Source of the DNA: Paracoccus sp. Z118
GTDB taxonomy: Bacteria > Pseudomonadota > Alphaproteobacteria > Rhodobacterales > Rhodobacteraceae
NCBI RefSeq assembly: GCF_019061185.1
Contig: NZ_JAHQZU010000004.1
Location: 124,001 to 188,000, forward strand
Reading direction: 5' to 3'
DNA: 64,000 nt
Positions 1 to 3,859 of this stretch are shown piece after piece (position 1 is the stretch's first letter; every line of letters starts with the position of its first letter). A program made the position numbers and the translations under genes. Below the pieces are notes generated by a model. That model saw only the letters and a list, made by a program, of their open reading frames with translations, was not told the origin of the DNA and searched no databases.

Positions 1-620
1 CATTCGGGGTGATTGCGCGCGATCGAATGCGCGATGTTCTGAAGCAGCACCGTCTTGCCGGTGCGGGGCGGGGCGACGATCAGGCTGCGCTGCCCCTTGC
101 CGATCGGCGCCACCAGGTCGATGATCCGGGCCGAGCGGTCCTTCACCGTCGGATCGTCCAGTTCCATCTTCAGCCGTTCGTCAGGATAAAGCGGCGTCAG
201 GTTGTCGAAGGCGACCTTGTGGCGCGCCTTCTCGGGGCTTTCGAAGTTGATCTTCTCGACCTTCGTCAGCGCGAAATAACGCTCGTTTTCGCCGGGGCCG
301 CGGATCACGCCCTCGACCGTGTCGCCGGTGCGCAGCGCGTGCTGGCGGATCATGTCGGGGCTGACATAGATGTCGTCAGGGCCGGGCAGGTAGTTCGCCT
401 CGGTCGAGCGCAGGAAGCCGAAGCCGTCCTGAACGACCTCGAGGACGCCGTCGCCGCCAATCTCGATCCCGTCCTCGGCATGCTCCTTCAGAAGCGAGAA
501 CATCATCTCGCCCTTGCGCATGGTCGAGGCGTTCTCGATCTCCCATTCCTCGGCCATCGCCAGCAGGTCGGCCGGAGTCTTGGCCTTCAGGTCGAACAGG
601 TTAAGGCGCTCGTCGCTCAT
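1..620 (-). CDS. rho: transcription termination factor Rho (3' part cut off)
   Basis: RNA-dependent helicase that ends transcription of untranslated RNA. The visible N-terminal 206 residues begin [20 protein letters not shown]. They contain the Rho N-terminal helix domain, then the cold-shock-like RNA-binding domain ([15 protein letters not shown]). The start of the ATPase domain follows, with the Walker A segment [12 protein letters not shown] near the window edge. The ATG at 620 gives the usual Rho N-terminus. The rest of the gene lies beyond base 1. It is transcribed leftward behind hemJ with 137 bases between, an arrangement typical of alphaproteobacteria near the origin. Identity is certain from sequence; the C-terminus cannot be judged. 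Confidence 0.96.
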
Positions 621-757: not shown

Positions 758-1207
758 TCAGAACTTCACGATCACCGACAGCACGATTACGGCCATCAAC
801 ACAGTCGGCACCTCGTTCATCATCCTGTAGGTGCGTCCGGGAAATGGCGCCGGCTCGGTGGCCATGATCTTGCGCTGACGCGAGAGCCAGTGGTGGAACC
901 AGGTCATCCCGAGAACCGCCGCGGCCTTCGTCCAGGGCCAGATCATCGACCAGTCCACCAGCCCCGGCGTGAAGACCAGCGTCAGGCCGAAGATCCAGGT
1001 CGCCGTCATCGCCGGGTTCATGATGAGGCGGATCAGCTTGCGCTCCATGATGCGGAAGGTCTCGACCATCTCGCCGGAGTTGCCCGCGCGCTCGGCGTGA
1101 TAGACCAGCAGCCTGGGCAGATAGAACAACCCGGCCAGCCACGCGATGACCGACATGACGTGGAAGGATTTCACGTAAGGATAGGCAGCATAGAGCAGGT
1201 CGGACAT
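758..1207 (-). CDS. hemJ: protoporphyrinogen oxidase HemJ
   Basis: 149-residue inner-membrane protein that oxidises protoporphyrinogen IX to protoporphyrin IX in heme (and chlorophyll) synthesis in bacteria lacking HemG/HemY. Four hydrophobic segments are visible. The N-terminal signature FHVMSVIAWLAGLFYLPRL carries the conserved His near residue 20, and the C-terminal RMMNEVPTVLM is typical of the family; length is normal (about 145). The start at 1207 has a good AAAGGAG site. It faces away from the candidate origin and is followed by rho. A TATACT-like element about 35 bases upstream may be its -10 but is not firm. Confidence 0.94.
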   Translation of the reverse strand: MSDLLYAAYPYVKSFHVMSVIAWLAGLFYLPRLLVYHAERAGNSGEMVETFRIMERKLIRLIMNPAMTATWIFGLTLVFTPGLVDWSMIWPWTKAAAVLGMTWFHHWLSRQRKIMATEPAPFPGRTYRMMNEVPTVLMAVIVLSVIVKF

Positions 1208-1271
1208 CGATGTCTCCTTTGCGACCCTTCATAAGATAAAGAAGAGTATAGAAGGAAGATGATGTTATAGG

Positions 1272-1319
1272 CCCTGTGGGAGTCTGAATCCTCCGCCGTC
1301 GCGAGACTTCCTCACAGGG
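1272..1319. repeat. imperfect inverted repeat in the candidate origin
   Basis: Left arm 1272-1285 (CCCTGTGGGAGTCT) and right arm 1304-1319 pair after two single-base gaps, leaving an 18-base loop. The outer seven pairs are CCCTGTG/CACAGGG. It has no T-run, so it does not look like an intrinsic terminator. It lies between the A/G-rich stretch and the palindrome. Confidence 0.6.
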
Positions 1320-1351
1320 TTTTCAGCATGTGGACGAGACGCGGATAAACA

Positions 1352-1373
1352 TTTCGCTTCACGTGAAGCGAAA
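1352..1373. promoter_or_regulatory. 22-bp perfect palindrome, parS-like
   Basis: Arms TTTCGCTTCAC and GTGAAGCGAAA are exact reverse complements with no spacer. The centre TTCACGTGAA equals the core of the ParB-binding parS consensus (TGTTTCACGTGAAACA); the flanks differ. Known: parS clusters lie near the origin and close to parAB, which usually follow rho-mnmE-mnmG in this group. Inference: a ParB nucleation site. An alternative is an operator for a regulator acting on hemJ or aroE. Confidence 0.6.
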
Positions 1374-1405
1374 ACAACTTCAATGGCTTGACCCTGCTAG
1401 CACCC

Positions 1406-1414
1406 TGTGGATAT
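1406..1414 (-). promoter_or_regulatory. DnaA-box-like nonamer
   Basis: TGTGGATAT on the + strand; its complement ATATCCACA differs from the TTATCCACA box at one base. Confidence 0.5.
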
Positions 1415-1462
1415 TTCCCTCGTTTCACGGTTCTACCAGCTGCGCCGCCCATACTGTCCCGT

Positions 1463-1471
1463 TGTGGATAA
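1463..1471 (-). promoter_or_regulatory. DnaA box, perfect
   Basis: TGTGGATAA on the + strand; the complement TTATCCACA is the exact consensus DnaA box. Confidence 0.7.
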
Positions 1472-1553
1472 CCGCCTCTGACTGTCCCGCCGATCCGCTC
1501 GAAATCGCGGAACCGACACCTGGGCCTGCTCCGTCCCCGCAACTCGACCGCGG

Positions 1554-1562
1554 TTTTCCACA
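1554..1562 (+). promoter_or_regulatory. DnaA-box-like nonamer
   Basis: TTTTCCACA fits the relaxed consensus TTWTNCACA on the + strand, opposite in direction to the other two boxes. Confidence 0.55.
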
Positions 1563-1637
1563 GATCCATGGACAGCCCGGCTTGCCACCACCCCCCAGCC
1601 CGCCGATGATCCCGCGAAAGAACCCGCACGATATGAC

Positions 1638-2492
1638 ATGACCGACCCCACGACGCCGCCTGAACCAGAACGCATCCCCCTGGCCGGAGTCATCGGCTGG
1701 CCCGTCGCGCATTCCCGCTCGCCGGCGCTGCATGGTCACTGGCTGAAACGCTACGGTATTGCCGGGCATTACGTGCCGCTGCCGGTCATGCCCGAACATC
1801 TGGGCAGCGTCCTGCACATGCTGCCCAAGGCCGGCTTCGTCGGCGCGAATGTCACCATTCCCCACAAGGAGGCCGTGCTCGCGCTCGCCGATGTGGTCAC
1901 CGACCGCGCCGCGCTGATCGGTGCGGCGAATACGCTGATCTTTCGCCCGGACGGCCGCCTTCACGCCGACAACACCGACGGCCACGGGTTCATGGCCAAT
2001 CTGCGCCAGAATGCACCAGACTGGGTGCCCGAACTCGGCCCGGCCGCGATCATCGGGGCAGGCGGGGCGGCGCGGGCCGTCGTGGCGGCGCTGCTGGAAA
2101 CCGGCGTCCCGGAGATCCGCATCGCCAACCGCACGCGCCTGCGCGCCGACCAGCTCCGGGCCGAGTTCGGCGCAAGGCTGGTCGTCCATGATTGGGTGCA
2201 GATCGGCAACATGCTGGACGGGGCTGCCACGGTGGTGAACGCGACCTCGATGGGCATGACCGGCCGCCCGCCTTTGCGGATCTCGCTGGACGCGCTGTCC
2301 CCCAGCGCGCTGGTCACCGATCTGGTCTACACCCCGCTCGACACGCCCTTCCTGATCGACGCGCGGTCCCGCGGCTGCCGGACCGTCGATGGTCTCGGCA
2401 TGCTGCTCCACCAGGCCGCGCCAGGTTTCGAGCGCTGGTTCGGCCACCGCCCCGAGGTCGACGACGAGCTTCGCCGGGCCGTTCTGGCATGA
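1638..2492 (+). CDS. aroE: shikimate dehydrogenase (NADP+)
   Basis: 284 residues; reduces 3-dehydroshikimate to shikimate in aromatic amino acid synthesis. Substrate-binding motifs are SRSPALHG near residue 27, the catalytic Lys in TIPHKE, and NTDGHGF. The Rossmann glycine motif GAGGAARAV and NRT follow, and GLGMLLHQAAPGF closes the C-terminus. The ATG at 1638 gives a short polar leader before IPLAGVIGWP, where homologues begin. It is first of a tightly coupled operon; its TGA overlaps the coaE ATG. Confidence 0.96.
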   Translation: MTDPTTPPEPERIPLAGVIGWPVAHSRSPALHGHWLKRYGIAGHYVPLPVMPEHLGSVLHMLPKAGFVGANVTIPHKEAVLALADVVTDRAALIGAANTLIFRPDGRLHADNTDGHGFMANLRQNAPDWVPELGPAAIIGAGGAARAVVAALLETGVPEIRIANRTRLRADQLRAEFGARLVVHDWVQIGNMLDGAATVVNATSMGMTGRPPLRISLDALSPSALVTDLVYTPLDTPFLIDARSRGCRTVDGLGMLLHQAAPGFERWFGHRPEVDDELRRAVLA

Positions 2493-3088
2493 GCTTCGTG
2501 CTCGGCCTGACCGGCGGAATCGGTATGGGGAAATCGACCGCCACCGCGATGTTCGCCGGGCGCGGCGTCCCGGTCTGGGACGCCGACGCGGCGGTCCATC
2601 GCCTCTACGCACCCGGCGGCGCCGCGGTGCAGCCGGTGGGCGAGGTCTTCCCCGCTGCGATCCGCGACGGCCAGGTGGACCGTTCCGCCCTCAAATCCAT
2701 TCTCGCCGCCGATCCTGCGGCGCTCGCGCGGCTCGAATCCATCGTCCACCCGCTCGTCGCAGCCGACCGCGCCGCCTTCATCCGCGACAACGCGGCGGTG
2801 CCGATCGTCCTCGTGGACATCCCGCTGCTCTTCGAAACCGGCAGCCAGTCGCAGATGGACGGCGTCGCTGTCGTCAGCACTGACGAGGAAACCCGCCGCG
2901 CACGGGTGCTCGCCCGTCCCGGCATGACCGCGGAAACGCTCGACCTGATCCTGTCGCGTCAACTGCCCGAGGCGGAAAAACGCGCCCGCGCCGACTGGAT
3001 CATCCCCTCGCACAGCCTTGACGCGGCGGAGAAGGCGGTGGATGCCATCATCGCCGACATCCTCAGCCGTCAGGGCCGCCAAGCATGA
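2489..3088 (+). CDS. coaE: dephospho-CoA kinase
   Basis: 199 residues; phosphorylates dephospho-CoA at the 3'-hydroxyl, the last step of coenzyme A synthesis. It begins MSFVLGLTGGIGMGKST, a P-loop typical of CoaE, followed by DADAAVHRLY and VDIPLLFETG. I chose the ATG at 2489 because it overlaps the aroE stop as ATGA and places the P-loop at the N-terminus. The longer upstream reading frame is out-of-frame aroE. Its stop overlaps dnaQ in the same way, so the three genes are probably translationally coupled. Confidence 0.96.
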   Translation: MSFVLGLTGGIGMGKSTATAMFAGRGVPVWDADAAVHRLYAPGGAAVQPVGEVFPAAIRDGQVDRSALKSILAADPAALARLESIVHPLVAADRAAFIRDNAAVPIVLVDIPLLFETGSQSQMDGVAVVSTDEETRRARVLARPGMTAETLDLILSRQLPEAEKRARADWIIPSHSLDAAEKAVDAIIADILSRQGRQA

Positions 3089-3786
3089 TCCGCGAAATCG
3101 TCTTCGACACCGAAACCACCGGCTTTGACCCCGCCACCGGCGACCGCGTGGTCGAGATCGGCGCGGTCGAGCTGATCAACCACCTGCCGACGGGCAACCG
3201 CTTCCACGTCTACCTGAACCCCGACCGCGCCATGCCGGCCGAGGCGATGGCCGTTCACGGCCTCAGCGACGAGTTCCTGCGCGACAAGCCCCGGTTCGGG
3301 GGCGTGGTGGCCGAGTTCCTGGCCTTCATCGGCACCGACTGCCCGATGATCGCCCATAACGCCGATTTCGACTTCCGCTTTCTCAACGCCGAACTGCGCC
3401 GCTGTGGTCATCCGCCGCTTCACGGCGCGCGTGCCGTGGACACCGCCGCGATGGCCCGGCAGAAATTTCCCGGCGCGCCGGCTTCGCTCGACGCCCTCTG
3501 CCGCCGCTTCGGCGTCGATAACTCCGGCCGCGAGCTTCACGGCGCGCTGCTCGACAGCGAATTGCTGGCCGAGGTCTATCTGGAGCTGATCGGCGGCCGT
3601 CAGCCCGACCTCGTGCTGGACGCCCCTGCGGCGGAAACGGAGCCCGGCGCCACGGTCCTCGTGATGACCCCGCGCCGCGCACGGCCCCGGCCGCTTCCGC
3701 CCCGCCTCACCGAAGCCGAGACCCAGGCCCATGCCGCCTTCGTCGCCCGCATGGGCGAGAAGGCCGTGTGGTTGCGCCTCACCTGA
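3085..3786 (+). CDS. dnaQ: DNA polymerase III epsilon subunit (3'-5' proofreading exonuclease)
   Basis: 233 residues; the proofreading subunit of the replicative polymerase. DEDDh motifs are all present: Exo I DTETTGFDP (residues 8-16), Exo II HNADFDFRFLN (near 92), and Exo III with His and Asp in HGALLDSELL (near 153). The C-terminal region would bind the polymerase subunit. The start overlaps coaE as ATGA. The order aroE-coaE-dnaQ is the standard alphaproteobacterial one; the secB gene that often follows is not here. Confidence 0.95.
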   Translation: MIREIVFDTETTGFDPATGDRVVEIGAVELINHLPTGNRFHVYLNPDRAMPAEAMAVHGLSDEFLRDKPRFGGVVAEFLAFIGTDCPMIAHNADFDFRFLNAELRRCGHPPLHGARAVDTAAMARQKFPGAPASLDALCRRFGVDNSGRELHGALLDSELLAEVYLELIGGRQPDLVLDAPAAETEPGATVLVMTPRRARPRPLPPRLTEAETQAHAAFVARMGEKAVWLRLT

Positions 3787-3859
3787 CAGGCGGGTCCGGC
3801 GGGCAGTTGCCTTGCACCCCCAAAGCGGCGATGCTTCACGTGCAACGGCGCGGGCGGGC

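Follow-up and report, generated by a model that had tools for sequence, protein, structure and literature searches.

A probable chromosomal replication origin upstream of hemJ in a draft Paracoccus genome, with a parS-like palindrome inside it

In Caulobacter and Rickettsia, the chromosomal origin is flanked by hemE and COG1806, and that of Wolbachia has been predicted by hemE (PMC1914354). In Caulobacter crescentus, parS lies about 8 kb away from the origin, Cori (PMC6399470). Among the Rhodobacterales, OriC1 of Rhodobacter sphaeroides was found by cumulative GC skew together with a search for replication and partition loci, and is marked by ParB1 (PMC6315104). Within Paracoccus, an oriC located by parAB and far from dnaA has already been predicted in P. 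yeei: that of strain CCUG 32053 is an AT-rich intergenic region, about 406 bp long, which lies near parAB at a distance of 965 kb from dnaA, in a paper whose main text does not contain the term parS (PMC6209633).

Here we place a probable origin in a draft Paracoccus genome of 161 contigs and 3.61 Mb. The window, that is the whole stretch of 64,000 nucleotides analysed, runs from base 124,001 onward of the 250,097-bp contig C106. The intergenic gap between hemJ and aroE at 1208-1637 is very probably the chromosomal replication origin (oriC). This reading, proposed by a first-pass annotation of the window, is now supported by the conservation of DnaA boxes and of a hemJ-side block, by linkage to parAB and parS-like sites, and by a polarity switch of GGGNAGGG, which we take to be the KOPS motif.

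The locus resembles the oriC of P. yeei CCUG 32053 in being an AT-rich intergenic region of some 400 bp near parAB, with three DnaA boxes and a distant dnaA (PMC6209633), whereas in P. yeei strain L044, unlike in the window, neither a hemJ within 6 kb upstream of aroE nor any box on that side of the gene was found. With Cori of C. crescentus it shares an alphaproteobacterial host, a haem-gene neighbourhood and DnaA boxes (PMC1914354), and here likewise parS-like sites are found nearby. It departs from Cori (hemE/COG1806) by its hemJ and aroE flanks, by the parS-like site inside the gap, and by the lack of any CtrA site (TTAA-N7-TTAA) at up to one mismatch in the gap; a CtrA-controlled origin of the Caulobacter type was rejected on this last ground. 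The likeness to R. sphaeroides OriC1, also a Rhodobacterales origin, is drawn from its description (PMC6315104).

The gap spans 430 nt, has a GC content of 0.57 against 0.69 for the contig and is free of genes, with divergent genes on both sides as first described. The product encoded at 758-1207 matches Pfam UPF0093 and is presumably HemJ. The best matches of the AroE protein come from Paracoccus marinus (86 %) and P. aeridis (83 %). An Rfam search of 1100-1750 returned nothing at E<=1. The features of the region are the following:

3..620, minus strand, rho, 5' part (the window end cuts the gene)
758..1207, minus strand, hemJ (Pfam UPF0093), adjoining the boxes in the relatives examined
1208..1637, no strand, probable oriC, the intergenic hemJ-aroE gap (box cluster, conservation upstream of hemJ)
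about 1231..1264, plus strand, A/G-rich low-GC stretch with GATGATG at its end, probable unwinding region (hemJ-side block kept in Rhodobacterales origins)
1275..1283, minus strand, degenerate DnaA-box-like TGTGGGAGT, 4 mismatches, adjoining the unwinding block
1280..1290, no strand, two GANTC sites (GAGTC 1280-1284, GAATC 1286-1290), possible CcrM methylation sites
1352..1373, no strand, perfect 22-bp palindrome (11+11 nt) with a parS-like core GCTTCACGTGAAGC at 1356-1369
1378..1390, plus strand, weak IHF-like site, 2 mismatches to WATCAANNNNTTR, without control
1406..1414, minus strand, DnaA box, 1 mismatch (ATATCCACA), motif scan
1463..1471, minus strand, DnaA box, perfect (TTATCCACA), motif scan
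1554..1562, plus strand, DnaA box, 1 mismatch (TTTTCCACA), motif scan
1638..2492, plus strand, aroE (shikimate dehydrogenase)
2489..3088, plus strand, coaE (dephospho-CoA kinase)
3085..3786, plus strand, dnaQ-like exonuclease (RNase_T)
3833..3846, no strand, second parS-like site in the window (GCTTCACGTGCAAC, 2 mismatches)

The motif scan recovered exactly the one perfect and two near DnaA boxes that had been claimed, and their clustering in an intergenic region goes well beyond chance: dinucleotide shuffles of the gap hold a mean of 0.051 boxes at up to one mismatch, and three were reached in none of 2000. The whole 250-kb contig contains 11 such boxes, and outside this cluster every 430-nt stretch has at most one. 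The perfect box is not over-represented genome-wide (10 occurrences, against 11 for a reversed control), so the evidence lies in the cluster and not in any single perfect box. No box at up to one mismatch occurs in the 40 kb around dnaA, which is carried by another contig, C73. With three good boxes only, the gap stands at the modest end of a range that reaches seven in relatives.

Conserved boxes, which the first-pass annotation expected from a comparison with Rhodobacterales homologues, were indeed found upstream of hemJ. We gathered 89 hemJ-upstream sequences from Paracoccus and other Rhodobacterales, removed 5 that were duplicates in their first 150 nt, and scanned the first 430 nt of each of the remaining 84; an own-genome copy of the window (L084) and 21 AroE loci at which hemJ was not matched, L071 included, were left out. 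All 84 distinct sequences contain at least one DnaA box at up to one mismatch, with 1-7 each and 322 in total, where mononucleotide shuffles average 7.3. Viewed from the other flank, 80 AroE loci comprise 59 with hemJ upstream, every one of which has boxes in the gap, and 21 without hemJ, 20 of which are devoid of boxes over 1000 nt ahead of aroE (over 351 nt in one case). The remaining locus, L071, has four boxes upstream of aroE, with no hemJ match and with rho in place. Outside Paracoccus, the hemJ-aroE gap of Rhodobacterales extends to about 1 kb, the extra part being maf in the three tested by Pfam.

Within the genus, HemJ was matched in 36 genomes, the present one included, and not in G017. 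All 30 loci examined (again counting our own) contain rho and have boxes no more than 700 nt upstream of hemJ; in six, aroE is absent from the 1.5 kb on the far side. The aroE side therefore looks prone to rearrangement, another gene standing there in those six loci. By eye, the far side of the origin at L089, L099, L100, L104, L106 and L109 encodes a TAXI-type transporter protein, a Rieske-type oxygenase or an aldo/keto reductase. A distance of about 20 kb separates hemJ from aroE in P. kondratievae, and one of about 49 kb in P. mutanolyticus, in each case on the same record, with 6 and 7 boxes, respectively, at 79-381 nt upstream of hemJ. Taken together, these comparisons indicate that the origin in this group travels with hemJ-rho and not with aroE. 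When the gap itself was used as a DNA query on 125 genomes of the genus, it matched its own genome and 9 of the 124 others; eight of these nine matches were weak, and some lay on contigs other than that of hemJ. The origin is thus kept in pattern more than in sequence.

The A/G-rich low-GC stretch reported at first pass is present at about 1231-1264, and AT content amounts to 0.60 in 1208-1250. It belongs to a hemJ-side arrangement that can be followed by eye in most of the sequences: an A/G-rich stretch with GATGATG or ATGTTG at its end, a G-rich spacer, then a TGTGGATA-like box. Many relatives have TGTGGATAG or similar at the place where the window shows the degenerate box TGTGGGAGT. When coded as ATG[AT]TG with GTGG no more than 28 nt further on, and searched for in the first 130 nt, the pattern is present in 58 of the 84 hemJ-upstream sequences, the window among them, against 0.5 in mononucleotide shuffles. 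This conserved block, together with the lowered GC content of the gap, provides the AT-rich region beside the boxes that an oriC is expected to have, and 1231-1264 is its probable unwinding region.

In many relatives, the same side recalls basal unwinding system (BUS) origins, with a DnaA box, a short spacer and a stretch rich in A-centred trinucleotides (PMC8287927). A rule coded as a DnaA box with at most 3 mismatches, a spacer of at most 16 nt and at least 3 NAN trios passes in 62 of the 84 sequences (20 in shuffles) and fails in the window. The window differs from BUS origins in its degenerate box and in repeats that read GAT/ATG 5'-3' instead of the consensus 3'-GAT-5' (PMC8287927). As for other motifs, the CcrM-type GAATC noted earlier is accompanied by the second GANTC site, GAGTC, both counted without a chance estimate; the pair may serve for CcrM methylation. 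IHF sites were rejected, the three matches in the gap having 2 mismatches each.

Of the parS-like palindrome and the inverted repeat proposed in the first reading, both are present but they form one element and not two, since 1352-1373 is the only repeat found with arms of at least 10 nt. Its 14-nt core departs from the parS consensus by 2 mismatches and lies close to parB. A scan of the 3.6-Mb draft for GTTTCACGTGAAAC at up to 2 mismatches yields three sites, grouped within 6 kb: contig positions 122,075, 125,356 (the gap) and 127,833 (window 3833-3846). A reversed control likewise gives three matches across the genome; the weight therefore falls on the clustering of the sites and not on how many there are. 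A further diverged copy, with 3 mismatches of 16, is located at contig position 120,199. The parB and parA genes (Pfam ParB_N, HTH_ParB, AAA_31) stand about 6 kb to the left of the gap, past rho, mnmE, mnmG and one ORF taken for a putative rsmG, which gives the gap the parABS proximity expected of an oriC. Exact GYTTCACGTGAARC sites, 1-3 each, are found in 35 of 36 other genomes of the genus, the one lacking them being 71 % complete. In 17 of these genomes, every such site among the matches listed falls within 5 kb of hemJ.

In Escherichia coli, KOPS point from origin to terminus (PMC2680272). To the left of the gap, GGGNAGGG is found 9 times on the plus strand and 19 times on the minus strand, and to the right 20 and 2 times. 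The best split falls at 122.5-127.5 kb of the contig and spans the gap (125.2-125.6 kb), as a KOPS switch at an oriC would. For a split at 125.4 kb, GGGCAGGG ranks first among all 8-mers for strand polarity (5 vs 29); taken alone, it is best split at 105-107.5 kb, where the fit is 1.3 log units better than at the gap. In G007, a relative assembled in one contig with hemJ at 780 kb, the GGGNAGGG switch appears at 825-840 kb, 45-60 kb from hemJ, and 780 kb is 4.1 log units worse. There, GGGCAGGG alone gives no distinct change point over the 400 kb around hemJ; among the first 100 of its 250 matches, 20 lie at or before 747 kb and the other 80 between 847 kb and 1.51 Mb, and among the first 100 of 227 matches of CCCTGCCC, 96 lie at or before 772 kb and the other 4 at 805-823 kb. 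The GC skew of G007 enters a positive run from 760 kb, with its lowest cumulative value at about 660 kb and a second low at 760 kb. With switches tens of kb from hemJ, this relative backs the region at a resolution no better than tens of kb.

A GC-skew minimum at the gap, predicted at first pass, was not observed: the cumulative minimum of the contig falls at 159,244 (window 35,244), 34 kb to the right. Skew over the whole replicon was ruled out by the draft state of the assembly. A fit to fourfold-site skew with gene orientation removed is best at 160 kb on the contig, its replichore term reaching 0.03 at the best split and 0.010 at the gap. The signal being small and noisy here, we give this result little weight, though it speaks against the gap. 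Third-position and fourfold-site skew fits, with their best at about 160 kb, were discarded as origin locators for being too weak, as was skew sampled over stretches of G007, which gave noise. At 110-130 kb of C106, which takes in the window up to about 6000, the local skew flips abruptly from +0.073 in the bin just left of the gap to -0.060 in the bin at the gap, opposite to the direction expected at an origin.

Two other explanations deserve attention. The divergence of hemJ and aroE is what a plain promoter region would display, with DnaA boxes present by chance or for DnaA-controlled transcription, and promoters probably do lie in the gap since the two genes diverge. Such a region would hardly account for boxes and a block that stay with hemJ across the Rhodobacterales examined, even without aroE, nor for the clustering of parS-like sites and the GGGNAGGG switch, and we regard it as very unlikely to be all that the gap contains. 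The skew minimum at 159.2 kb, along with the displaced skew and KOPS changes of G007, would instead suit a true origin elsewhere within about 50 kb, for example near window 35 kb, the gap being merely origin-proximal. That reading is extremely improbable in our view: the contig offers no second box cluster in any 430-nt stretch, GGGNAGGG switches at the gap, and hemJ is preceded by boxes in 84/84 sequences and by the block in 58/84. In a genome so weakly skewed, hemJ-rho is a better anchor for finding the origin than GC skew.

With the gap read as oriC, initiation could proceed as follows. DnaA would bind the boxes at 1406-1414, 1463-1471 and 1554-1562 as well as weaker ones, and an ATP-DnaA complex would extend toward the hemJ side and open the A/G-rich stretch that adjoins the degenerate box at 1275-1283. 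Helicase loading at the opened stretch would then allow two forks to depart, one through hemJ-rho-mnmE-mnmG-parA-parB and the other through aroE-coaE-dnaQ. ParB would load on the parS-like sites within a few kb, apparently including the one in the gap, and the par system would separate the new origins.

What sets this otherwise ordinary origin apart is a parS-like palindrome within oriC, seen in three close species and its only novel feature. A parS-like site at up to 2 mismatches is found within the origin in three of the 84 sequences, those of the window, P. marinus and P. aeridis, and is absent from the origin of L042, a fourth close relative; the palindrome lies at about 5719 in both L004 and L005. 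In the other Paracoccus examined, parS sites lie a few kb off, apparently at the ends of mnmG (gidA). A narrow literature search, including PMC6399470 and PMC7022226, brought up no report of parS inside a chromosomal oriC. We tentatively propose, as a possibility we consider rather unlikely, that in the P. marinus lineage parS arose within oriC, with the unwinding block on one side and the strong DnaA boxes on the other, so that the loading of ParB and the assembly of DnaA either share these 430 bp or are in competition for them. If true, initiation and segregation would be directly coupled in that lineage, unlike in the other Paracoccus examined. A parS-like site inside oriC also constitutes a natural test case for interference between ParB and DnaA.

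Some parS-like sites of Paracoccus carry C for T in one or both half-sites, as in GCTTCACGTGAAGC (G013:C1:1219362 and 1221228; G032:C30:31391 and 33260), and these variants possibly co-vary with ParB.
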